A stretch of DNA of 38,073 nucleotides, from positions 1-38,073 of the forward strand of contig CANQXE010000022.1 in assembly GCA_947627725.1 (NCBI GenBank). Reading direction: 5' to 3'. The notes under the pieces are model-generated. The model had not been told where the DNA came from, searched no databases, and saw nothing but the letters and a program-made list of their open reading frames with translations. Source of the DNA: an uncultured Clostridia bacterium (lineage in GTDB: Bacteria; Bacillota; Clostridia; Oscillospirales; Acutalibacteraceae). Made by a program: the position numbers and the translations under genes. Of the stretch, positions 20,696-33,676 are shown one piece after another. Within the stretch, counting starts at the first letter, position 1, and each line of letters opens with the position of its first letter.

Positions 20696-20745
20696 GACCC
20701 TCCCGATATGTTAAATATCGGGAGGGTCTGTTTATTATTTTTTAT
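20696..20745 (+). terminator. prmA terminator
   Basis: A perfect 14-bp stem (20696-20709 and 20715-20728) with a 5-base loop is followed by TGTTTATTATTTTTT. The converging surface-protein gene ends at 20735, inside the T-rich tail, and may use the hairpin from its side too. Confidence 0.92.
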
Positions 20746-23700
20746 CCTTTTTTCGCTTATTAAGAATAATTAAAATGATAATCACCGCAAGGAGAAGTAA
20801 GCCTAAAGCCGAACCGATAATAATCGGCAAATTATTGTTTTTCTTTTCAGCATCCGTCTGTGAATTGTCTTTATCCTGTGCGGTTACCGTATTATCCTTT
20901 GCTTTATCTCCTGAAGTAATTTCACCGTTTACACTTTCAGGCTGATTGTCATTATTTTTCGCAATGCTTTTTTTATCGGAGCTTTTTGTGGATTTTTGAT
21001 TTACCGTCACAGTCTGTACAGAACTTTTTGAATTACTGCCCGTACTGTTTGATTTGTTACCGTCGGCAGAATAATCAGTAATTTTATTGGATTGATTCTT
21101 GTTATTCTGATTATTATTTTCTTTATCCTGAACAGTATTTGAAGAATTTCCGTTTTTCTCCTGTGAATCCGCGTTATCACTTTGATTGTTATTCTGACTG
21201 TCCTTCGGCTTATTGGCAAGCGAATAATCCTTGACATACATAACAACAATATCCTCGCCGCCTGAAAGCTCCTGAGCGTTCATATACGAATTTACAAACA
21301 CATCTCCAACAGTATACATCCAGCCCGAGCTTTTACCGTAATCAAATTCCGAAAGACCGTTTATGGAAGAAATATAACTGCCCTTGGCGGTGTAAGCTAT
21401 ATTATTATCCGCAAGCGCCTTTTTAAACACATCAAAAACGGTTGCACCTTTAGTGAAGGATGTCTCCAAAGTTTTAGCAATTATCGGTGTACCGTTAAGC
21501 CCCAAAAGCGTAAAGCTTACGCTGATTGGCTTGTCAAGCTCTCTTTTATATGAGGACAGGGCGGCATTATACGAGGACGCCTTCAGCATTTCGGGCATAG
21601 AAGCAAAGGCTTCTGTATAATTACCCGCGCCGACCGCCATTACATATGCGCTTACAGGCTGCTTATAAAGCTGTCTGAACTTTGCCAATGCTTCAGCATC
21701 ATAGGCTTTATCATTTTGAAATTTAGTATAATACTTGCCGAGCGTTTCGTCTGTCAATACACTGTTGATTTTAACGAAAGTATCTTTTGAAGGTGTTTCA
21801 TTTAAAATTAACGTTTCATTGGAAATTAAATTTCTGTCGCTGGTGCGGAAAAGACGCCAGTCCTCCTGCTCCTCCCAGCCGGGAAGCTCGTCAACAATAA
21901 TTCCGCTGCCCCGCATATCAGCATTACGGTAAATAAAATCAACACCCGATTTATCACTATTCCATACAACTTCCTTAAAAGGAGTAAGATTATCAATAAT
22001 GCTGTAAGTATCGGTATTTTCTCCGAGCAGTCCGTAGGAATAATTCGTTTTTGCCTGATCCATTAATTCAAGCGAGGCATTAATCTCCGCTCTGCTTAAG
22101 TGCTTAACAGTAACCGTAATATCTTTTGTTGCATAGAGATTCGGATTTGCTTTGCTCTCCATTCTTACACTCAGAGTTACCTGCTTATCCGAACTGCCGT
22201 CCTCGCCGAGCGGTCTGTAAACATACGCGCGGAAGCTGTTTATATCAATAACATGAGTATCGGAGCTTGTAACGGTAAATTTGTAGTTCCAGTAATCCCA
22301 GTATTTACCGTAATGAATGCTTTCAAGCTCCTTTTCTGTTACAACATTTTTTGGAATAACAAGCTGAATATCATTGTCAACGGCATTAATATCAAGCTTT
22401 TTCTTTGTTGCGAAATTTGTCAGCTTGTCTGCCGTATAGCATTTTAAAACAGCTTTCATTGTATCTATGCTCTGATTTAACTGCTCGTCAGAAAGAGGAC
22501 TGATTGTAACATCGAATGTTCTTATAACCGTAATATCTGTTGACGGATTTGTTATCACGGCAGTCAGGGTGACGATATGCTCCTCGCTGTCCTGATAAAC
22601 TCTGCCTGTAAAAGAATTATATAAGGAGTCGGCACCGCTCTGCCTTTTTTCATTGCTGACAGCAAGATGCTTTTCATCCGACGACTGCCATGTTATCCAT
22701 GCGAATGAATATTTGTCACCGTCTATAAATGACGGTAAATTCAAATCCGAAGTAACTGAGCCTAAGTCTGTGTTGTCCGCGCGGATAGCATCTTCTGTCA
22801 GTACATTATCCGACGAAGCCTCCAGTGCCTTTCTGCCATCCGCCGTATCCCATGGAACTAAAAGTGAATAGATATCCGATGTGGGATAAGTAACGGTTTT
22901 GCCGTCTACTGTAAGGTTAAAATACACCTGTAGCTGCTTTCCGTTTGCAAAGGTATTGCCCTCGGGAACAGCGGGATAATTTATTTTTCCGTTTGCTGAA
23001 ATAAGGCTCTCGTCTGCGGTTGATTGAATAGTAACGGTTACTCCGTCATATCCTCTGCTTTTAAGGATATTACTGAATTTGACAAGAATATTTGTATCCT
23101 CCCCATAAACAGGCTGAAGTAATTTGAAATCCCATTTCATACTGTCAAGCACATTCTGAAGATAGACATCGGCATCCACATCTTTTGCCCATACATCTAT
23201 AGTAAACTTCTTACTGTCCGACACAGTACCGCAGGAAACATTTGCGGTTAATGTAACCGTAACAATATTTTTATCCGGTAACTTGACAACGCCTGTATTG
23301 CTTATAATCTCAGGATTACTGCTTGACCAGCTTACAGAGCAATCACCGATTTGAGACGGGAGATTTAAATTTGTCTCTTCCTTGATTATTGTTTTTTCAA
23401 GAGAAAGAGAGGCAAGCGCCGCCTTAACCTTGTCACTGTTCTCCTTTTCAATTAAATTATCGGATTTTTTAACAGGACCGATAACGGCAAATGCGCCTGA
23501 ATTTTCCTCACCGTTCACGGTAACCTTAATATATTTTCCCGCATAATCGGCTGTATCGGGGATATTAAATATACCGCTTTGAGCGTCTGAAATATCCGCA
23601 AAGCTCACGCCGTCGTCCGAAACAGACCACTGATATTCAACATTTGTCGCGGTTTTTTCATTTTCACCGAGTGCCTGTGCTGTAAGTACAGCACCCGTAA

Positions 23701-24742
23701 CCGCCTCACCGAGAATATTTACGGTTGTTACTGGCACAACCTCCACACCCGAAACAAGCTGCCATGTAAGAACGGGATAGCCGTCATTCATATTTGACGT
23801 ATCCTCGCTGAATAATTTTTGAGCGCCTGCATTAAGATTTGTTAAAAGCGCGGCTTTATCGGTTATTTTTTCATAGCCTGTTGCAGTTCCGCCGGGTTCC
23901 GATGCCTCATCATTCAGATAGTAACAGTTTGTAATAACTGCGTTACTAAAACCCGCAATACCGTTTATGCTGTCACCTGTATTATAACAATAGCTTATTT
24001 CGCCCTTACTCTGCTGACCCGCGATACCAGCGCTTCTTGTTTTACCCGAAATATCACCTGTATTATAACAACTGCTGACGCTCGCCGATTGGCTGGTATA
24101 GCCGAGAATACCGCCTGCGTATGAACCGCTTATATCCGCCGTATTGCAACAGCCTGTAATAACCGCGTTTTTTGATACAACAGTACCGATAATACCGCCT
24201 GTGTAGCCCTTTGTGCTTGTTCCCGTTGATGTGACCGAGCCGCTGAAAGAGCAGTTTTCAACCGTACCGGTCTGAAGCTTTCCGATAATACCTCCGACTA
24301 CATTGTTTGATGTAACCTCGCCCTCAACCTTCAGATTTTTAACCGTACCCGTATTGACAGTTCCGAATAAGCCGTAGCCTCCCGCAGAGGCGTCAATCTT
24401 AAGTCCCGATACAGTATGATTCTGCCCGTCAAACGTACCCGCATAAGCGTCTACAACATATGTAATCAGTCCGATAGGCGTCCACGGTCTGTTACCTAAA
24501 TCAATATCATCTGTCAGAACAGCGTTAAGACTGACAAGTCCTGTATCCTCCGCTCCAAGAGTATTAACATATTCCGCAAACCAGGCAAGCTCGTTTGCAC
24601 TGCTTATCTGATAAATACCGTCAATCTGTTCCGGCTTTGTTTTCGTACTGCCGTCCCAAGCCTGTGCAAACACGGGAATTGCCGGCAACACGGACGCCAT
24701 CAATGTTATGGATAATAACAAGGATAAAATTCTTTTTTTCAT
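20735..24742 (-). CDS. Large membrane-anchored surface protein with GLUG-like repeats, Ig-like modules and a transcobalamin-like (DUF4430) domain
   Basis: The 1335-residue protein has a signal peptide (1-26, cut near VFAQA). GLUG-type beta repeats follow (about 120-270, with YTGGIIGTVVSKNAVITGCC and several CYNTGD units), then several Ig-like modules with the WSSSNPE pattern. A DUF4430 domain (about 1074-1173) carries FTKGATVFDVFKKAL and SSGWMYTVGDVFVNSYM. An Asn/Ser/Lys-rich linker (about 1174-1301) and a C-terminal membrane anchor with NKRKKDKK complete it. No LPxTG motif is seen, so it is membrane- rather than sortase-anchored. AAAAGGAG lies ten bases before ATG. A cobalamin riboswitch controls the operon. 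DUF4430 is related to the C-terminal domain of transcobalamin, so corrinoid capture at the cell surface is a reasonable inference. Confidence 0.88.
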   Translation of the reverse strand: MKKRILSLLLSITLMASVLPAIPVFAQAWDGSTKTKPEQIDGIYQISSANELAWFAEYVNTLGAEDTGLVSLNAVLTDDIDLGNRPWTPIGLITYVVDAYAGTFDGQNHTVSGLKIDASAGGYGLFGTVNTGTVKNLKVEGEVTSNNVVGGIIGKLQTGTVENCSFSGSVTSTGTSTKGYTGGIIGTVVSKNAVITGCCNTADISGSYAGGILGYTSQSASVSSCYNTGDISGKTRSAGIAGQQSKGEISYCYNTGDSINGIAGFSNAVITNCYYLNDEASEPGGTATGYEKITDKAALLTNLNAGAQKLFSEDTSNMNDGYPVLTWQLVSGVEVVPVTTVNILGEAVTGAVLTAQALGENEKTATNVEYQWSVSDDGVSFADISDAQSGIFNIPDTADYAGKYIKVTVNGEENSGAFAVIGPVKKSDNLIEKENSDKVKAALASLSLEKTIIKEETNLNLPSQIGDCSVSWSSSNPEIISNTGVVKLPDKNIVTVTLTANVSCGTVSDSKKFTIDVWAKDVDADVYLQNVLDSMKWDFKLLQPVYGEDTNILVKFSNILKSRGYDGVTVTIQSTADESLISANGKINYPAVPEGNTFANGKQLQVYFNLTVDGKTVTYPTSDIYSLLVPWDTADGRKALEASSDNVLTEDAIRADNTDLGSVTSDLNLPSFIDGDKYSFAWITWQSSDEKHLAVSNEKRQSGADSLYNSFTGRVYQDSEEHIVTLTAVITNPSTDITVIRTFDVTISPLSDEQLNQSIDTMKAVLKCYTADKLTNFATKKKLDINAVDNDIQLVIPKNVVTEKELESIHYGKYWDYWNYKFTVTSSDTHVIDINSFRAYVYRPLGEDGSSDKQVTLSVRMESKANPNLYATKDITVTVKHLSRAEINASLELMDQAKTNYSYGLLGENTDTYSIIDNLTPFKEVVWNSDKSGVDFIYRNADMRGSGIIVDELPGWEEQEDWRLFRTSDRNLISNETLILNETPSKDTFVKINSVLTDETLGKYYTKFQNDKAYDAEALAKFRQLYKQPVSAYVMAVGAGNYTEAFASMPEMLKASSYNAALSSYKRELDKPISVSFTLLGLNGTPIIAKTLETSFTKGATVFDVFKKALADNNIAYTAKGSYISSINGLSEFDYGKSSGWMYTVGDVFVNSYMNAQELSGGEDIVVMYVKDYSLANKPKDSQNNNQSDNADSQEKNGNSSNTVQDKENNNQNNKNQSNKITDYSADGNKSNSTGSNSKSSVQTVTVNQKSTKSSDKKSIAKNNDNQPESVNGEITSGDKAKDNTVTAQDKDNSQTDAEKKNNNLPIIIGSALGLLLLAVIIILIILNKRKKDKK

Positions 24743-25017
24743 TTTACTGACTCTCCTTTTTCTTTCTGATGTTCTCTCCTGTATTTAATTTGATTTTCCT
24801 TTGCACGTCTGCGCTTTTCACGCTTTTTAATAATCCTCTCTTCATTAGGCTTTTTAACGCCCGCCGCCTCCAAAGCTCTCGGCCATGGTCCGAAAAAGGA
24901 TTTAATCATACTGACGGTTTCATTGTCAAAATCAGATTTTTTAGGCATACGATTAACCGTGTCCGCCTTTTGCTGTATTAATAAAATACAATCATTCTTC
25001 GTGAGTTTACCGCCCAT
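24739..25017 (-). CDS. Small HNH-endonuclease-associated repeat protein
   Basis: The 92-residue protein has one repeat of the homing-endonuclease-associated type (DCILLIQQKADTVNRMPKKS followed by FFGPWPRALEAAGV). Members of this family bind DNA next to HNH nuclease domains. Here no nuclease domain exists, only a Lys/Arg/Glu-rich tail (about 55-92). GGAGG lies four bases before the ATG. Its stop overlaps the start of the surface-protein gene (ATGA), so it is translated first in the riboswitch transcript. Its role there is not clear. It may be a DNA-binding regulator or a leader that couples translation. Confidence 0.7.
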   Translation of the reverse strand: MGGKLTKNDCILLIQQKADTVNRMPKKSDFDNETVSMIKSFFGPWPRALEAAGVKKPNEERIIKKREKRRRAKENQIKYRREHQKEKGESVK

Positions 25018-25043
25018 TTTGCCTCCAATAATGTAATTTCTTT

Positions 25044-25086
25044 ATAAAAATAAAATGCACATCCCGCTAAAAAGCAGAAATGTGCA
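25044..25086 (-). terminator. Riboswitch terminator hairpin
   Basis: TGCACAT and ATGTGCA with an inner 4-bp helix (25074-25086 and 25056-25067) form a stem followed on the minus strand by TTTTATTTTTA. It lies 27 bases before the first regulated gene. An upstream stem (25153-25161 with 25115-25123, followed by TTTTT) could be a first terminator or the antiterminator partner. Confidence 0.75.
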
Positions 25087-25310
25087 ACATATTTTTTGCA
25101 AGCTGATTATCAAAAAGAGTACAACTGTCCCTTGGCGCTCACATCAAACGGCTGCACTCTTCCTTACCCAAAAGTGTTCATACAGGTTAAAACCTAATAA
25201 CCCTGTTTTCCGGCAGGAATTCCGACTTATTAAAGCTAAAGCCTTAAATTACGGTAATGGCGGTTGCGACGGATTTTCACCGAACTTCCCCTTGAATGTT
25301 AAAAAACAAC
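25044..25310 (-). promoter_or_regulatory. Cobalamin riboswitch with terminator-type expression platform
   Basis: On the minus strand the aptamer core runs GGGGAAGTTCGGTG (25291-25278), AAAATCCGTCGCAACCGCCA and TTACCGTAA. It ends in the B12 box AGTCGGAATTCCTGCC (25227-25212). These match the conserved blocks of the cobalamin riboswitch. The segment between TACCGTAA and the B12 box is short, as in the compact class. A small hairpin with GGTT in its loop can pair with AACC of the core (kissing interaction). Two terminator-like stems follow (25115-25161 and 25044-25086). The controlled genes are the HNH-repeat protein and the large surface protein. Cobalamin should lower their expression. Confidence 0.88.
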
Positions 25311-25365
25311 ACCGAAAAACAGTTATATTCAATTTACAATATTCTAACACCGCATAAATCCTGTG

Positions 25366-25401
25366 TCAAGAAAAAAAAGAGAAGATTAACAAGCTTCTCT
25401 T
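25366..25401 (-). terminator. Terminator with U8 tail, copy A of a 25-bp direct repeat
   Basis: On the minus strand AAGAGAAG (25401-25394) pairs with CTTCTCTT (25384-25377) and the stem runs into eight T residues, then CTTG. Sequence 25377-25401 recurs at 25676-25700 with one change. It was probably the terminator of feoB before a segment came in between. Confidence 0.7.
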
Positions 25402-25722: not shown

Positions 25723-26484
25723 TTAAAATATAAAACTTATTAACGCACAAATTATTACGCCTGTCATCAACGGCGTTAATACGGACAGCAAGGTCCACTT
25801 TACGCTTTTTGTTTCCTTCCAAATAGTTAAAAGCGTTGTCGAGCAAGGAAAATGGAACATTGAGAATATGCAGGTGCAAAGCGCCGTCATCCATGTCCAG
25901 CCGTTGTCGACCAGAATTGTCTTAAGGCTTTCAAGCGTGGAATAGTCGCCCATTTCACCTGTTGAAAGATAAGCCATAAGCGCAATCGGAATAACGATTT
26001 CATTTGCGGGAAAGCCGAGAATAAACGCAAGCAGCATTACTCCGTCAAGCCCGATGAAATGACCTAAAGGGTCAAGAATATCGGCTATTTTGCAGAGCAG
26101 AGTTGTACCTGCAATATGGATATTTGCAAGCGCCCATATTATCAGTCCTGCGGGCGCTGCCACAATTACCGCACGCATAAGAACAAAAATTATTTTCTCA
26201 CGGATTGTATCGCCTATCAGACTGAGTACTTTAGGCTTTCTGTATGGCGGAAGCTCAAGCACAAAGGAGCTGGAAACACCTTTAAGCACAGTAGACGTAA
26301 GAACCTTTGAAGCGGCAAGCGTCATCAACATTGACACGGCAATTAATGCTAAAAGTATTACGGCCGACAAAATACTGCTCCTGCAAAAGAACATGGATAT
26401 TATTGCTATCAAAAGAGGAAATACGCCACCAAAATTGCGGAAACTTTTGTGCGTTTTTCGGTGAATAAACGGCTGAAACTGCAT
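25723..26484 (-). pseudogene. feoB: feoB 3' part (ferrous iron transporter B), cut by the serine-recombinase element
   Basis: The 253 codons encode the C-terminal transport half of FeoB. It contains LELPPYRKPK, LDPLGHFIGLDGVMLLAFIL and GFPANEIVIPIALMAY, then GWTWMTAL and FHFPCSTT. About seven membrane segments can be drawn. The whole GTPase domain and first membrane half are missing. The FeoB match begins at about codon 21 (near 26424), where the family normally reads GRFPTLIAI. The preceding 20 codons are foreign and come from the end of the recombinase element. The ATG overlaps the recombinase stop (TAATG), so a truncated product could be made, but it would be inactive as a GTP-driven Fe(II) carrier. 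Confidence 0.85.
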
Positions 26485-28088
26485 TATTCACCGTACATAA
26501 AAATATGTAAATCCGCCCCATCCCATTCGATTTTCTGAATGAGCAGTCTTATAATCTGCCTTTTGTCGTAGATTGACAAATCGTCAAATAAATTCTTAAA
26601 CGACTTAACGCTTTCTATCAATGCGTCCGTATCAAAATCTATATTTTCGCTTGTCTGATTTTGCTCTGTGAGTTCGTTTTCAAGAGCGTGTAAATATTCG
26701 GTCTGTTCTACAATTTTTTTGTCAATGGCACTGATTGATGCCTGACTTAATGTTGTATCGGTCAAGCGGTTTACAAGGGTATCCATTTCATTTTGTACAG
26801 CTTCAATGTCCTTTTTTATTTTGTCTGTTTTATCAATATTCCGCTCCTTTTCATATTCCCTTTTCAGATTTTCAAGAGCAGATGTAAAGGTGTCAAAATT
26901 ATCAAGCTCGCCCTTTATATAGTCAACAACCAAATCATCTGTCTGCTGTCCCGTAAGATTGGGACAATCACAAAGTGCGTTGTTGCCTTTCAGCTTGCTT
27001 GAGCATATATAACTAAAGCTATCACTTGTCGCCTTATGCTTTTTTGAAAACATTTTTTCACCGCATTTTGCGCAGTAAATCAAGCCCGACAGCAGACCTG
27101 TTTCGCTATGATTGACAATCTTTTCCCTATGATTATTGTGAAAATATTTTTGAATCGACACCCAATCCTTACCGCTGATAATTCCCTCATGCTTGCCGAT
27201 TGCCACAATCCACTCATCAAGCGAATTTCTCGGCGCTCCCGAACGGCTGTAATCCCTTTTATTGTAGGTTGAAACACCATGCTCACCGTTCCACATTTCT
27301 TTATCCTGACAAATATCAGAGCCGTTTTCTGCAAAGTAATGATAAGCGTTTTCATCGGCAATACAGTAAACCGGATTTTGCAGAATATCACGGATACCGA
27401 GTACGGAAAAATATTTGCCCGTGGTCTTTGACTTAATTTTTTTCGCAATCAGATATTTGCTCACGGCAGATACGGAATGTGTTTCAAGAAAGTGATTATA
27501 CATCAGCTTTACCGTGTCAATTTCATTACTGAACATTAATTTATGCGAGGTCTTGACCTTACCGTCAACAATAACCTCGCTCTCCTCCGCTCCACGATAG
27601 CCTGTCGGCGGAGTACCGCCGAGCCAGCGACCTGTTCGAGCCAAAAGGTGCATATTATCACGGACACGCTCTGCAATCGTTTCACGCTCAAGTTGCGCAA
27701 AAACAGAGGTTATATACATCATAGCCTTGCCCATAGGAGAAGAGGTATCAAAATGCTCTTTGATGCAAATCAGGTTTACGCCCTTGTTGTTCAGTTTTTC
27801 AATCAAGCCAGAAAAATCACTCACATTACGGCTCAGCCTGTCAAGCCGATAACACACGATATACTCAAATTTGTATGTATCAAGGTCCTTCATCATCTGC
27901 TGAAACCGCGGGCGTTTTAAGTCCTTTGCGGAATATCCCTCGTCCTCATAGACGAATATATCCTCATCGGCAACATCAATATCAGCCATTGAAAATTTGA
28001 TATACTGCTTACACATTTCAATTTGATTTTCAACACTCTCGCCCTTGCCTGTAAACAATGACTTTCGGCTGTAAATTGCAACTTTCAT
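26484..28088 (-). CDS. Large serine recombinase (TnpX/integrase type)
   Basis: The 534-residue protein has the resolvase-like catalytic domain (1-150) with the nucleophilic Ser in AIYSRKS (residue 10) and YRLDRLSRN and ERETIAERVRDN. It also has the recombinase domain, a zinc-ribbon (CAKCGEKMF and later CSSKL, CDCP) and a C-terminal coiled coil (about 400-470). It catalyses site-specific integration and excision without homology. The start at 28088 has AGAGGTG five to seven bases upstream, and an extension to 28112 is not supported. It is located at the element end next to the cut feoB, where integrases usually sit. Confidence 0.93.
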   Translation of the reverse strand: MKVAIYSRKSLFTGKGESVENQIEMCKQYIKFSMADIDVADEDIFVYEDEGYSAKDLKRPRFQQMMKDLDTYKFEYIVCYRLDRLSRNVSDFSGLIEKLNNKGVNLICIKEHFDTSSPMGKAMMYITSVFAQLERETIAERVRDNMHLLARTGRWLGGTPPTGYRGAEESEVIVDGKVKTSHKLMFSNEIDTVKLMYNHFLETHSVSAVSKYLIAKKIKSKTTGKYFSVLGIRDILQNPVYCIADENAYHYFAENGSDICQDKEMWNGEHGVSTYNKRDYSRSGAPRNSLDEWIVAIGKHEGIISGKDWVSIQKYFHNNHREKIVNHSETGLLSGLIYCAKCGEKMFSKKHKATSDSFSYICSSKLKGNNALCDCPNLTGQQTDDLVVDYIKGELDNFDTFTSALENLKREYEKERNIDKTDKIKKDIEAVQNEMDTLVNRLTDTTLSQASISAIDKKIVEQTEYLHALENELTEQNQTSENIDFDTDALIESVKSFKNLFDDLSIYDKRQIIRLLIQKIEWDGADLHIFMYGE

Positions 28089-28187
28089 ATAATCACCTCT
28101 TATCATACACATAATATAACATCAAAAAAAGAATACTTCAAGGCTCAATATGAATTATATTCTTAAAATATTTCTTAAAATTTACTG

Positions 28188-28216: not shown

Positions 28217-28240
28217 ATGATTGTGAAAGGAGCTGTTCAT

Positions 28241-28507
28241 ATGCCTAATATTAAACCGATTTCTGATTTAAGAAATTATAATACTGTTTTACAGGATGTT
28301 GCTGTCGGTTCACCTGTATTTTTAACCAAAAACGGTCACGGTAAATATGCTATCGTAGATATTGCCGAACAGGAAGAATATGAAAAAACAAAAGCGGCGC
28401 TCAAGCTGATGTGCGAGCTTGAAAAAGGCAGAAAATCCGGAGAGGAAGAGGGATGGCTTACTGAGGCTGATATAAGAGCGCATTTCTCTAAAAAAGCAAA
28501 TGGATAA
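28241..28507 (+). CDS. Phd/YefM-type antitoxin
   Basis: The 88-residue protein starts MPNIKPISDLRNYNTVLQDV and continues GSPVFLTKNGHGKYAIVDI, the classic Phd/YefM DNA-binding half. An acidic C-terminus follows, which would wrap the toxin. AAAGGAG lies eight bases before ATG at 28241. An upstream in-frame start at 28217 would lie inside the promoter. Its stop overlaps the toxin start by eight bases. Confidence 0.9.
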   Translation: MPNIKPISDLRNYNTVLQDVAVGSPVFLTKNGHGKYAIVDIAEQEEYEKTKAALKLMCELEKGRKSGEEEGWLTEADIRAHFSKKANG

Positions 28508-28811
28508 TAAAATTCACTATTCACCAAAGTCATTGTCTGACCTTGATGAAATTTTTGACTATATTGCTTATGAGTTAAAAGATATAATCGCTGCCGAAAA
28601 TACTGTTAATGGCATCATTGATTCAATTGATATTTTGAAGCAATTTGCAGAGAGTGGTTCTATACTCTGCATTCCAACCGGTGAGGTTACAATTTACCGA
28701 TATGTTGTTTACGGTAATTATTTATCCTTTTATCATATTTCTGAAAATGAAGTTTATATTGACAGAATTATATACGGTAAACGCGATTATATTAAAATAC
28801 TTGGATTATAA
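28500..28811 (+). CDS. RelE/ParE-family toxin
   Basis: The 103-residue protein has the RelE/ParE fold pattern: SPKSLSDLDEIFDYIAYEL (helix 1), a helix-rich middle, YRYVVYGNYLSFYHISENEVYIDRIIYGKRD at the core strands and a basic end. Members cut mRNA at the ribosome or block gyrase, and the type cannot be decided here. It is coupled to the antitoxin by overlapping codons and followed by a terminator, so the pair is complete and probably active. Confidence 0.88.
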   Translation: MDNKIHYSPKSLSDLDEIFDYIAYELKDIIAAENTVNGIIDSIDILKQFAESGSILCIPTGEVTIYRYVVYGNYLSFYHISENEVYIDRIIYGKRDYIKILGL

Positions 28812-28816
28812 AACTA

Positions 28817-28855
28817 AAGCACTTGCTACTGATTAGCAGGTGCTTTTGTCGTTTA
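28817..28855 (+). terminator. Terminator of the toxin-antitoxin operon
   Basis: AAGCACTTGCT (28817-28827) pairs with AGCAGGTGCTT (28835-28845) over 11 bp with one G-U pair, followed by TTGTCGTTT. The neighbouring minus-strand gene ends at 28853. Confidence 0.8.
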
Positions 28856-29752
28856 ATCTATCATAATCATTTCCAATGCCTCATTTACTGTGAGTTGGTT
28901 ATTAAGATACAAATTTTTAGCAGTGACAGCAGTGCTTAGCCAAGCTGTATATTCATCATAAGAAATGGACTTCGATGTTTCACCGAATGTAAATGATCTC
29001 TCCATACGCTTATACATTTTATTTTTCTCTTTATTAAAGGTTTGTAAAACTAAATCATTCTCCGCAAGCATTTTGTGCTTTATTATCGGACCGATTTGTT
29101 TGCAGATCTTTCCGTCTTTAAAAACTCTGTCACAGTACAGAGTTTTCTTTTTTGTCTTCGGAACAAATAGCCTGTTGCAGTTTTCACATTCACAAACGGT
29201 TTCATCTCTCAAATAAAATGTAAAAATCAGATATTCATAGTATGACTTAGGACTATCAAAGAATAAAATTTCTTCACCGTTTCGTGTTTTGGTAACTGTG
29301 TATTCAATGGTATCGTGCATAGAAACATCCAGCACACCTGAAAGAATATCCTTGTGCATCACACACATAAAAAGTTTATTCACTTTGTTTTTCATATATG
29401 GCAGCAGTTTCATTCTGATGCTTACTGTTTCTAATTTGCTTTTTAGTTCTTCAGGTGTATTAATATCAGCCAATTTTCTGTGAATGAGATGTTTGTTGAT
29501 ATCAGCCTTGAGCAGAACTCCTAAAACAATATTATCTTTCAAAATTTCTTCTGCAAAGTCATATGCAGAATCAACAGTATAGTTATCGTATATTTCTGGT
29601 AATTCATAATCATAAAGTGCAATCAGTTCATTCCTGTAGTCAATAGGCTCTAATTCAGTAATATCCAAATCATCAACTGCAATTCGATCAATAATATTTT
29701 TATTTTTGAATTTGATATATAACCCTGTTCTTGAATAAATGTTTTTGTCCAT
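28853..29752 (-). CDS. DUF6076-like protein with a zinc-binding Cys cluster
   Basis: The protein of 299 residues ends in a region with CECENCNRLFVPKTKK, YCDRVF and KICKQIG, a Cys4-type zinc site, followed by a helical tail with ISYDEYTAWL. This is the layout I associate with the DUF6076 family, found in mobile elements and accessory regions of gut Clostridia. The role is unknown. ATG at 29752 is used because the AAGAAAG region lies about ten bases upstream. A TTG two codons earlier is possible. Confidence 0.7.
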   Translation of the reverse strand: MDKNIYSRTGLYIKFKNKNIIDRIAVDDLDITELEPIDYRNELIALYDYELPEIYDNYTVDSAYDFAEEILKDNIVLGVLLKADINKHLIHRKLADINTPEELKSKLETVSIRMKLLPYMKNKVNKLFMCVMHKDILSGVLDVSMHDTIEYTVTKTRNGEEILFFDSPKSYYEYLIFTFYLRDETVCECENCNRLFVPKTKKKTLYCDRVFKDGKICKQIGPIIKHKMLAENDLVLQTFNKEKNKMYKRMERSFTFGETSKSISYDEYTAWLSTAVTAKNLYLNNQLTVNEALEMIMID

Positions 29753-29998
29753 AATCAATCTTTCTTAAAAAATTCAATTATTACCTACGCATAGTTTTTC
29801 ATTTCTGTATTTATTAAAATGATAGCACAGGAAGAATTGTATTACAAATATAAATCCTGAATTTATAGTACAGAGGTAAAAAAATATGTAGCTGATAAAG
29901 AATTTATTGCAGGTTTCGCATTTGTATTACGCCACGGCGATAACAAATGCATTCGGACTAAGCCCATACCCCTATTAGGAAAGGATAAAGGTGATAAT

Positions 29999-30310
29999 AT
30001 AAGTAAAAATAGAACAGAAATACTAACCTTCAGAGTAACTCCTGAAGAGAAGAAATTGATTGAAACCAAGGCACTTTCATCATACAGACTTGTTAGTATG
30101 TACCTCCGTGACTGTGCTTTGGATAAAGAAATTATTGTAATTGACGGAGTAAAAAAATTATCAGCAGAGCTCCGTAGAATAGGAAATAACCTAAATCAAA
30201 TTACAAAAACGGTCAACAGCGGAGTATATGCCGTTGACTTAACTGAAACGAAAAAGGAGGTGCAAAAAATTTGGCAGTCGTTAAATTCGTTATCTCAGGC
30301 AGTCCGATGA
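29999..30310 (+). CDS. mobC: MobC-like relaxosome accessory protein, non-standard start
   Basis: The frame reads RTEILTFRVTPEEKKLIETK and AELRRIGNNLNQITKTVN, which is the MobC ribbon-helix-helix and C-terminal pattern. Such proteins help the relaxase to melt oriT. The best ribosome-binding site (AAAGGTGA, 29987-29994) points to an ATA codon at 29999, where relatives have ATG. TTG at 30056 would remove the DNA-binding N-terminus. The gene may be weakly translated or dead. It overlaps the relaxase gene by 40 bases, as is usual for mob operons. Confidence 0.6.
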   Translation: MSKNRTEILTFRVTPEEKKLIETKALSSYRLVSMYLRDCALDKEIIVIDGVKKLSAELRRIGNNLNQITKTVNSGVYAVDLTETKKEVQKIWQSLNSLSQAVR

Positions 30311-31215
30311 ATAATATCTTCCCGTATATTATGAAAAAAGAAAAGACTGAGCAAAAATTAATCAGCGGTATCAACTGTATGCCCGAAACGGCTATGGAAG
30401 AATTTATGGCTGTTAAGAAACAATTCAACAAAACAGATGGCAGACAATATTATCATGTGGTGTAATCTTTCAGTCCCGAAGATAACATTTCACCCGAAAC
30501 CGCACACGAAATCGGATTGAAATTTGCAGAATACTTTGGCAGTTATCAAATGGTAATTGCTACTCACACAGATAAAAATCATATCCACAACCATATCGTT
30601 TTCAACTCAGTTAATTTTGTAAACGGCAAGAAATTTCATCAGACAAGAGATGAAATGATACAGGCAAAAGAGTATTCAAACAAGATTTGTCAGGAGTACG
30701 GACTCACTCTTACAGAGGCAAAGGCCACCAGATACAATATGCCGAAATGGAAACGCAAACTGCTTATAAAAGTTGAGTACGCAATGGAATATAGCGCAAC
30801 AAAAAAAGATTTTATTTATGTGCTTGGCAGAATGGGTGTTAAGGTTGACTGGCAGGACAATCACAAGTACATCACTTTTACAACGGATGACAATCACAAA
30901 TGCCGTGACAACAAATTATTTGACGAGCGTTTTCTAAAAGAAAATCTTGAAATTTACTTTGAACTCGGCGGTTCATATAGCGTTATTGCTGAAGAATATC
31001 AAGAATACGAAACACCGCAGACAGGAATTATTTCTGATGATTTATTCAATCTTATAGGCAACCTACTTGATTTGGAAATGCAAAACAACACAAAACGCAA
31101 ATGGATGCCTCACCACAGCAAAGAGGAAATTGAAAAACTCATCGCTCAGGGTCAAAAAATCACGAATGAAGATTATGACGAAGAATATAATGAGTATCAC
31201 GGAATGACTTTGTAA
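30271..31215 (+). pseudogene. Relaxase (MobA/VirD2-like) with an in-frame stop
   Basis: The frame from TTG 30271 (AAGGAGGTG eight bases upstream) encodes a typical start, AVVKFVISGSPMNNIFPYIM with the likely catalytic Tyr in NIFPY. It then meets TAA at 30463-30465 and continues in the same frame. Relatives have Gln (CAA) in GRQYYHVVQSFSPEDN, so a single C-to-T change explains the stop. The second part has the metal motif HTDKNHIHNHIVFN and KFHQTRDEMIQAKEYSN. Full length would be about 314 codons. It is likely inactive, or a tRNA suppressor would be needed. Confidence 0.85.
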
Positions 31216-31843: not shown

Positions 31844-33676
31844 ATGAAACGAAGTATTAAAAACATCATTAATATTATTGTTATCATCGCAATGATTGCT
31901 GCTAACGGAGCAACAATATATTTTGCAAAAACTCAAACAAATAATTTTTCAAACAATATACAAATGAGCAATAATGGGCAAATGAGCGGCGGAGATTCAA
32001 ATACACCGCCTGAAATACCAAGCGGCGATAACAGTGCCGCGCCAAGTGGTGAGCAACCGTCCGAAAAACCAAACGATATACAAAACGATGACAATGAAGC
32101 CCCTCCTGAAAAGCCTGACGGCGAAGACAACAATGCGCCGAGTGATAATAATGGCAATCAAGGTATGCAGTCACCTGATAACAAGGATATGAATAAGTCT
32201 GACGATAATATGCAAATGCCGAATAATAATCAAGGCGGTAAAAACAGAACATTGTATTACATTCTGTTTGGTATAGAAAATCTCGTACTTGCCGCTGCGA
32301 TTATGTATCTTATTATGTCAGGTGCAAATAAAAAAGGCATTAAAGCAACCTTTAAAAACGCAGATAAAATAATTATTTATATTCTTTCTATAGTAATTAT
32401 TACAGCTGCATTAACAGTTTCTGACAGCTTTGCCGTAAACAAATTAACATCAGGCACGAATCAAGATGGTCAAATTCAAATGGGCGGTGACACAGGCTCA
32501 AGCTCAGACGCTGTCGGAGATACGGAAATTACAAACGAACAAAGCCTTGACGGTGAATTCGGTTCAACTACTGCTGACAACAACGCAATTCTTGTTAAAG
32601 ACGGCGGAAGTCTTACCTTAACAAATGCTGATGTAACCAAAACAGGTGACAGCTCTAATACGGAAAATTCAGAATTCTATGGAATTAACGCAGGTATTTT
32701 GGTAGCAGAAAATTCAACTGCAACGATTGACGGTGCAACAATATCAACTAATTCTAAAGGCAGTAACGCGGTATTTTCAACAGGCAGCAATTCAAAAATA
32801 TATATCAGCAACACATCTATCTCCACATCAGGTAAAAGTTCTGCAAGAGGACTTGATGCAACCTATGGCGGATATATTGAAGCTGATAATGTAACAATAA
32901 CTACCCAAGGCGCGTCCTGTGCCTCACTTGCAACGGACAGGGGCGAAGGAACTGTTATTGCGAAAAATTCAAAGCTTGAAACGAACGGAGCGGGTTCACC
33001 TGTTATTTATTCCACAGGTGATATTTCAATCTCAGGCACTGAAGGAAAAGCAAACGGCGCGCAAATGATTGTTATTGAGGGTAAGAATTCTGCAACAGTT
33101 GAAAATTCAACTTTAATTTGCAGTGGCGCAGGCAACAGAAATAATGTTGACGATGCAGGAGTTATGATTTATCAGTCAATGTCAGGTGATGCAGATGAAG
33201 GTACGGGCAACTTCACCTCTAAAAATTCAAGCCTCAGCATTGACAGCAATTCCGATTATTATAAAACAGCGCCAATGTTTTTCATTACAAACACAGATGC
33301 AGTAATCAGTCTTGAAAATACAACTCTTAACTTTGGCAGCAATCTTTTAATCAGTGCAAAGGGTACTGATGAATGGGGAAAAAGCGGTTCAAACGGCGGT
33401 AATATTACACTTAATGCAACGAACCAAACGCTTAGCGGAAATATTGAGCTTGATAATATTTCTTCACTTGAAATGAATTTATCTTCATCAAATTACTCAG
33501 GCACAATTAATGCAGACAACACTGCAAAGAGCATTACATTAACTCTTGATAAAAATTCTTCAATCACTCTTACCGGTGATTCTTATGTGACATCTCTTGA
33601 GAATGCCGATACATCCAACAGCAATATTAACTTTAACGGCTATACCCTCTATGTCAACGGCAAAGCTGTAAAATGA
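31844..33676 (+). CDS. Surface protein with beta-helix carbohydrate-binding-type domain (Cthe_2159-like)
   Basis: The 610-residue protein has an N-terminal membrane segment (about 7-28), an extended Asn/Pro/Gly/Asp-rich region (about 35-135), two more membrane segments (about 138-158 and 174-193) and an outside domain of about 390 residues. That domain is built from short repeating strands rich in Thr, Ser, Asn and Gly (ILVKDGGSLTLTNADVTKTG, GILVAENSTATIDGATIS), the pattern of a right-handed beta helix as in the Cthe_2159 carbohydrate-binding family. A ligand such as pectin or cellulose is possible but not shown. AGGAG lies about ten bases before ATG. Relatives often sit next to CotH and polyphosphate-polymerase genes, but none is seen here. 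Confidence 0.75.
   Translation: MKRSIKNIINIIVIIAMIAANGATIYFAKTQTNNFSNNIQMSNNGQMSGGDSNTPPEIPSGDNSAAPSGEQPSEKPNDIQNDDNEAPPEKPDGEDNNAPSDNNGNQGMQSPDNKDMNKSDDNMQMPNNNQGGKNRTLYYILFGIENLVLAAAIMYLIMSGANKKGIKATFKNADKIIIYILSIVIITAALTVSDSFAVNKLTSGTNQDGQIQMGGDTGSSSDAVGDTEITNEQSLDGEFGSTTADNNAILVKDGGSLTLTNADVTKTGDSSNTENSEFYGINAGILVAENSTATIDGATISTNSKGSNAVFSTGSNSKIYISNTSISTSGKSSARGLDATYGGYIEADNVTITTQGASCASLATDRGEGTVIAKNSKLETNGAGSPVIYSTGDISISGTEGKANGAQMIVIEGKNSATVENSTLICSGAGNRNNVDDAGVMIYQSMSGDADEGTGNFTSKNSSLSIDSNSDYYKTAPMFFITNTDAVISLENTTLNFGSNLLISAKGTDEWGKSGSNGGNITLNATNQTLSGNIELDNISSLEMNLSSSNYSGTINADNTAKSITLTLDKNSSITLTGDSYVTSLENADTSNSNINFNGYTLYVNGKAVK

Follow-up and report, generated by a model that had tools for sequence, protein, structure and literature searches.

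On the minus strand of a 38,073-nucleotide contig from an uncultured Clostridia bacterium of the Acutalibacteraceae (GenBank assembly GCA_947627725.1, contig CANQXE010000022.1; this whole stretch is hereafter called the window), a cobalamin riboswitch is followed by two genes, which encode a small HNH_repeat protein and a large surface protein with a DUF4430 domain. An initial annotation, made from the letters alone, had proposed that this unit captures corrinoids at the cell envelope under repression by vitamin B12. The Rfam cobalamin model RF00174 matches the leader at 25195-25331 with 44.4 bits (gathering score 31.5, E 3.9e-8) and from end to end (model positions 1-189 of 189), so that the proposed riboswitch is borne out as an aptamer of compact form with a short peripheral region; the leader limits first given, 25310-25044, cover aptamer and expression platform but begin 21 bases inside the former. 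Immediately 5' of the aptamer lies a sigma-70-type promoter, TTGACA-17-TAGAAT (25341-25369), which agrees with the consensus at 11 of 12 positions and is the best of three promoter-like matches in the 601 bases scanned, where shuffled sequences gave a mean of 2.3. No second cobalamin riboswitch was found in a search of the whole genome.

The leader aligns well with those of ten relatives (n=11, with the relative L010 left out), and many columns of the aptamer core are invariant. Downstream of the core, a P13-like hairpin (25155-25176, CACUUUU...AAGAGUG) is the same in all eleven leaders, with seven of seven pairs identical, and its loop is able to kiss the L5 loop: the L5-L13 pairing UUACC/GGUAA consists of standard pairs throughout in 9/11 leaders, with one A-C mismatch in each of L003 and L009. 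The strand GUGCAGC (25151-25157), which reads GUGCA(A/G)C in the alignment, overlaps P13 and is complementary to the sequence GUUGCAC in the 5' arm of the terminator (25082-25088); from this complementarity and its conservation, it is a putative antiterminator. The intrinsic terminator itself (25045-25086, with a U tract) lies just 5' of the first gene, and its arms GCACAU...AUGUGC, which form six stem pairs (25085-25080 with 25057-25062) ahead of a T run, are invariant in 11/11 leaders; part of it was recovered by a consensus scan as well. Of two terminator-like stems noticed earlier, the second (25086-25056 plus the U tract) is thus this conserved terminator, whereas the first is only an alternative hairpin that folding yields in 6/11 leaders. 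Because these parts hardly vary, little covariation is available to prove the pairings. The layout would suit an OFF switch, in which P13 and the terminator form with ligand and the antiterminator without it, a direction of control that we infer from the leader layout together with the general rule for the class, as given in the accessible text of PMC11477304.

The small HNH_repeat protein and the surface protein

The first gene (24739-25017, minus strand) encodes a cytosolic protein of 92 residues, rightly called an HNH-repeat protein from the outset (PF18780, 44.3 bits, cut-off 26), and shares four bases (ATGA) with the surface gene. Its AlphaFold2 model (predicted local distance difference test score, pLDDT, 87.9) features helices at residues 7-21, 32-42, 45-51 and 59-88, that is, three helices and a long, basic fourth one, and no significant structural match to it was found. 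A homing endonuclease was considered and rejected, as Pfam sees only the repeat and no nuclease domain; the protein thus shares the PF18780 profile match but differs from the family in lacking a nuclease domain and in belonging to a compact subfamily tied to cobalamin riboswitches. Our literature search on HNH_repeat returned, in the text available, only modelling of repeat proteins with no function stated. The small protein would most likely be a DNA- or RNA-binding regulator.

The tie to riboswitches rests on a profile built from 12 sequences (A3), which gave 18 matches in 17 of 148 related genomes. Eight of these lie behind riboswitches of the window's genus, and a riboswitch scoring no lower than its cut-off is close by in eight of the other ten loci, with RF00174 matched in seven (one of these matches runs off the end of its stretch) and AdoCbl-II in one; for the last two, an RF00174 match of 28.5 bits, below cut-off, lies just upstream (G122:C24), and no riboswitch match was found nearby (G124). 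The family therefore stands beside an above-cut-off cobalamin or AdoCbl-II riboswitch in 16/18 cases, directly downstream and, by coordinates, on the same strand in 14 of them and divergently in G008 and G047. A tandem layout, in which the small gene is flanked by two cobalamin riboswitches, was seen twice (G122:C34, locus L114, and G142:C1, locus L121). The AdoCbl-II-type aptamer (38.7 bits, cut-off 36.5; L118 in G110) precedes a small gene that is followed, some 2 kb on, by a DUF4430 gene. When 398 genomes were drawn from across the phylum, weak members alone turned up besides the window's own, with a riboswitch in 1 of the 7 scanned, so that the link belongs to the close subfamily rather than to HNH_repeat at large.

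Relatives of the whole unit were found at 13 loci of our genome collection. Two of them (L013 and L014) match the N-terminal part only and were left out of the RNA scan; in all 11 others the surface gene is preceded by a cobalamin riboswitch that exceeds the cut-off, and in ten of these the small gene lies between the two as the first gene of the operon. This constancy, like the 16/18 association above, would also suit a riboswitch that mainly serves the small regulator, with the surface gene as a co-transcribed passenger. We regard this as quite improbable, since the riboswitch of L010 drives a surface protein with no small gene in between, and 40 further riboswitches of the genus drive toroid genes, as described below.

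The second gene is a single open reading frame (ORF; 20735-24742, minus strand) for a protein of 1335 residues, in which a start resembling a signal peptide and, at the C-terminus, a hydrophobic stretch with a basic tail were recognised by reading the sequence; both agree with the secreted, membrane-anchored protein first proposed. The better of two GLUG repeats spans residues 146-171 (24230-24307; PF07581, whole-protein score 28 bits, cut-off 20.5), and an atrophied bacterial Ig domain, aBig_2, residues 455-519 (23186-23380; PF20578, 75 bits, cut-off 27), the latter family being matched in all ten aligned proteins, namely this one and nine relatives with 51-88% identity. There follows a conserved core of 566 residues (517-1082; 21497-23194), with a mean column identity of 76% over the 10 sequences and a mean pairwise identity of 0.66 (minimum 0.59), for which a sequence search of the PDB gave nothing below E 0.25 and which is perhaps partly Ig-like. 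Most of this core recurs before DUF4430 in a riboswitch-linked protein of 2490 residues from another family (L085, E 1.6e-42). The chain ends in a low-complexity spacer and the C-terminal membrane anchor (residues 1180-1335; 20738-21205); the mean pairwise identity of the spacer among relatives is 0.20, and a GG_III-CTERM match at residues 1308-1334 is weak (17.3 bits, under the cut-off of 22).

Between core and spacer lies the DUF4430, or transcobalamin beta-like, domain (52 bits, cut-off 23.8; 58.9 bits in the genome search), whose presence had been anticipated within wider limits, about residues 1074-1173, than the 1099-1170 found here (21233-21448). In its structural model the fold is a beta-grasp most like that of B12 carriers: the 14 best rows of the VIA-align comparison are all vertebrate B12 carriers, in keeping with the kinship to transcobalamin and intrinsic factor suggested in the initial annotation. 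No counterpart of the other half of those carriers was recognised in the chain by sequence: Pfam scans gave no alpha/alpha toroid family in the surface protein, and a toroid profile gave none in its close relatives.

The GLUG and Ig modules may lift the domain out of the cell wall, which is plausible. Such modules are, however, common in adhesins, and the core lacks a match to any known structure, so that the protein might instead be an adhesin or wall protein in which the ligand of DUF4430 is another cofactor, a glycan or a protein, with B12 merely signalling a useful condition. The pattern of conservation speaks against this reading, which we judge unlikely: DUF4430 (mean pairwise identity among relatives 0.73) and the core are the best conserved parts, compared with 0.63 for the GLUG part, and the L010 relative retains core, DUF4430 and the aBig_2 match while the GLUG part is absent.

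Riboswitches, DUF4430 and toroid genes in related genomes

The initial annotation had called for a survey of DUF4430 genes downstream of cobalamin riboswitches, and the pairing found is recurrent. Among the 148 related genomes, DUF4430 is present in 125 and a cobalamin riboswitch in 109. We cross-tabulated 131 riboswitch places with 150 DUF4430 places among the matches listed, using distance limits of our own choice (8 kb in the case of DUF4430 and about 4.5 kb in that of the toroid). At least 53 of the 131 riboswitches have a same-strand DUF4430 gene downstream within 8 kb, a lower bound because the DUF4430 places are partly listed and only the nearest was taken; for 17/131, among the matches listed, DUF4430 lies on the opposite strand within 3 kb. 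The filters of the riboswitch survey were stricter, and at least one riboswitch of G142 (46.1 bits) and one of G047 escaped it. After this first pass 78 riboswitches were left, of which 71 were fetched with their surroundings, some stretches stopping at contig ends, and 7 lay in loci already covered. On the same strand, many of these drive a gene for a secreted protein with an alpha/alpha toroid, which corresponds to transcobalamin's other half. The same holds for 15 of the 17 opposite-strand cases, which drive a toroid gene on their own strand; of the other two, G008 drives a giant protein with both domains and G033 none.

Within the window's genus, 28 of 76 riboswitches precede DUF4430, 40 a toroid and one both (G008, a 2613-residue protein), which amounts to DUF4430, toroid or both behind 69/76. 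The rest comprise two before the cut-off start of the present unit, two at contig edges and three others, among which G033 has no recognised gene and the remaining two drive secreted proteins of 747 and 803 residues with neither domain. These last two lend the adhesin explanation some support, while the 69/76 pairing weighs against it. They are driven by second riboswitches of their genomes (L144 and L145, in G070 and G028), carry carboxypeptidase-regulatory-like and aBig_2 matches, and are possibly another kind of B12-related surface protein. Outside the genus, at least 25 of 55 riboswitches have a same-strand DUF4430 gene, and others precede energy-coupling factor (ECF), FecCD or, by reading, cobalamin-synthesis genes, as expected.

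ECF transporter genes and genomic surroundings

In other families, these parts stand together with transporter genes at one locus. In G147 the riboswitch is followed by a toroid+DUF4430 protein (SLH also recognised by reading), a second protein that joins a toroid to SLH, a lipoprotein with DUF4430, EcfT and a fused EcfA-EcfA'-S, the ECF names being assigned by reading; in G126 it is followed by the small protein, one gene later by toroid and DUF4430 in a single chain, and then by ECF genes. The S-components match best the cobalamin transporter subunit CbrT (PDB 6FNP) in G147 (E 6.1e-9), G111 (1.7e-8) and the genome of the window (7.5e-6 to chain A, the next match being at 0.16), although Pfam and NCBIfam place the last in general, riboflavin and folate S-component families. 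CbrT of Lactobacillus delbrueckii carries cobalamin and cobinamide, according to the part of PMC5997447 available. The presence of CbrT-like S-components at riboswitch loci of other families is a further point against an adhesin. Four order-level relatives (L146, L151, L156 and L158) show a cobalamin riboswitch, a small secreted protein and then a membrane protein of 169-182 residues with no Pfam match; in the secreted protein, DUF4430 reaches its cut-off in two of the four, scores below it in a third and is not matched in the fourth, and the membrane protein of L146, the only one of the four tested, matches CbrT.

Near the unit itself, no BtuFCD- or ECF-like gene was recognised on reading the ORFs of 8000-34000 or in a Pfam scan of eight ORFs, in line with the earlier remark that no BtuFCD-like ABC transporter is visible. 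Other parts of a possible system are scattered over the genome. Contig C7 encodes EcfT (CbiQ match, 33.8 bits), fused EcfAA' ATPases and the CbrT-like S gene. Contig C3 encodes, behind hpt, a DUF4430 lipoprotein of 163 residues and a toroid protein of 353 residues; only 24 bases separate hpt from the lipoprotein gene, and no cobalamin riboswitch was found in this stretch, unlike in G060, where one sits between these two genes. That the genome's second DUF4430 gene has no riboswitch is in favour of the adhesin explanation. Contig C17 encodes one protein with a B12-binding domain, MetH-like by reading. CobS was not found in the genome, other synthesis genes and metE not having been searched for; the organism therefore probably needs external corrinoid for methionine synthase.

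A toroid was not found in all bearers of the unit. It is lacking in four of the eight genus members that have the unit (G021, G025, G038 and G074), in which no DUF4430 beyond the unit's own appears among the matches listed, the unit of G074 running off its contig. The other four possess a toroid and further DUF4430, and a toroid was likewise found in each of the four comparison genomes that lack the unit. Of these 12 genomes, 10 have a CbrT-like S gene, which was not found in G038 and G056; single absences are weak evidence because the genomes are drafts. From these gene contents, the beta-only form with the core appears, in some species, to take the place of the toroid pair.

The relatives of the unit are annotated as Lachnospiraceae, Lachnoclostridium, Eubacterium and uncultured Clostridia, with one as Bacteroides that we take for a mislabel. 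Where read, the flanking genes are unlike between most loci, so that the unit may move between hosts. In L008 (1664-3139 and 3284-3422), the riboswitch unit is immediately preceded by a serine-recombinase-like gene, recognised by reading, which would fit such movement. In the window, a C-terminal fragment of FeoB (Gate, FeoB_C) is directly behind a serine recombinase gene (25723-26484 and 26484-28112, minus strand). Beyond these (28217-31215) lie a relaxase and genes that read as MobC-like and toxin-antitoxin-like; probably, a mobile element has inserted into feoB here. The sister genome G054 (L089) is arranged similarly. Farther along, at 31844-33676 on the plus strand, a protein of 610 residues has a membrane start, a Ser/Thr/Asn-rich body and no Pfam match.

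A candidate surface protein for corrinoid capture

Overall, we think it probable that the unit provides, under repression by B12, the surface part of a system by which a Gram-positive bacterium acquires corrinoids. The direction of the initial proposal is supported by the riboswitch, the B12-carrier-like domain, the recurrent pairing with DUF4430 or toroid genes and the CbrT-type ECF neighbours at other loci. When cobalamin is plentiful, the riboswitch would fold with P13 and the kissing loop, the terminator would form and neither gene would be transcribed; when it is short, the antiterminator would let transcription through, the small HNH_repeat protein would be made, and translational coupling to its gene would yield the surface protein. 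The C-terminus would hold the latter in the membrane with the conserved core and DUF4430 exposed outside, where both would bind corrinoid and hand it, alone or with the separate toroid and DUF4430 lipoprotein, to the CbrT-like ECF transporter encoded elsewhere. A bolder version, which we offer tentatively and consider possible but doubtful, holds that the unit is a self-contained B12 catcher in which an unrelated 566-residue core has replaced the toroid half, and which is co-expressed with a tiny riboswitch-controlled protein that would bind DNA or RNA and carry the B12 signal in trans to scattered uptake genes lacking riboswitches of their own.

To call the system undescribed, as the initial annotation did, is too strong. 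In the available text of Burroughs et al. 2007 (PMC1796856), B12 scavenging was predicted from gene context for surface proteins of low-GC Gram-positives that are secreted or anchored, carry a transcobalamin-type beta-grasp (SLBB) domain and sometimes Ig-fold domains, and occur in hosts lacking B12 synthesis, generally with CbiO/CbiQ-like genes alongside and often a second SLBB protein. The present protein shares with this class its secretion or anchoring, the beta-grasp and Ig-fold domains and the predicted scavenging. It differs in that its parts are scattered over contigs, with only the surface unit under riboswitch control; the same text, as far as available, has no riboswitch term and describes neither the core nor the HNH_repeat partner. 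Human transcobalamin, intrinsic factor and haptocorrin combine the vertebrate beta domain with an alpha/alpha toroid in one chain, whereas the genome studied here encodes the toroid separately, on another contig, and some relatives gave no toroid match at all. With respect to ECF-CbrT, the S-components here and at the riboswitch loci of two relatives match the L. delbrueckii protein best, and the portion of that report seen (PMC5997447) contains no riboswitch or lipoprotein terms and describes no surface capture protein.

A parallel, by function only, is BtuG of Bacteroides, which would work alike as a surface protein catching B12 for a transporter but is, in the accessible part of PMC6143338, a Gram-negative lipoprotein with the outer-membrane partner BtuB. 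The same source reports that BtuG removes B12 from intrinsic factor, and several relatives of our unit come from metagenome bins named 'Lapin', which we read as rabbit gut. Corrinoid might thus be taken from carriers (host intrinsic factor, haptocorrin or proteins of other bacteria) instead of as free B12; given that the sequence holds nothing on the corrinoid source, we rate this as the least likely of the explanations considered. We found no literature joining a cobalamin riboswitch with DUF4430, in a search with subscription papers mostly outside its reach, and nothing joining 'transcobalamin-like', riboswitch and Firmicutes. Within the literature searched, four points are apparently new: the riboswitch linkage, the beta-only form with a conserved 566-residue core, the apparent substitution of that form for the toroid pair in sister species, and the small protein tied to riboswitches.

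How Gram-positive gut bacteria unable to make B12 capture it outside the cell is largely unknown, and BtuG shows the importance of such proteins in Bacteroides. Regulation now ties bacterial relatives of intrinsic factor and transcobalamin to B12, as does, in other families, their gene partnership with transporters of a proven B12 family, so that the 2007 prediction becomes directly testable. The riboswitch-tied small protein hints at a B12-controlled regulator. Finally, bacteria have the two domains that make up the vertebrate carriers in three arrangements: on separate proteins, in one chain, and in a beta-only form.
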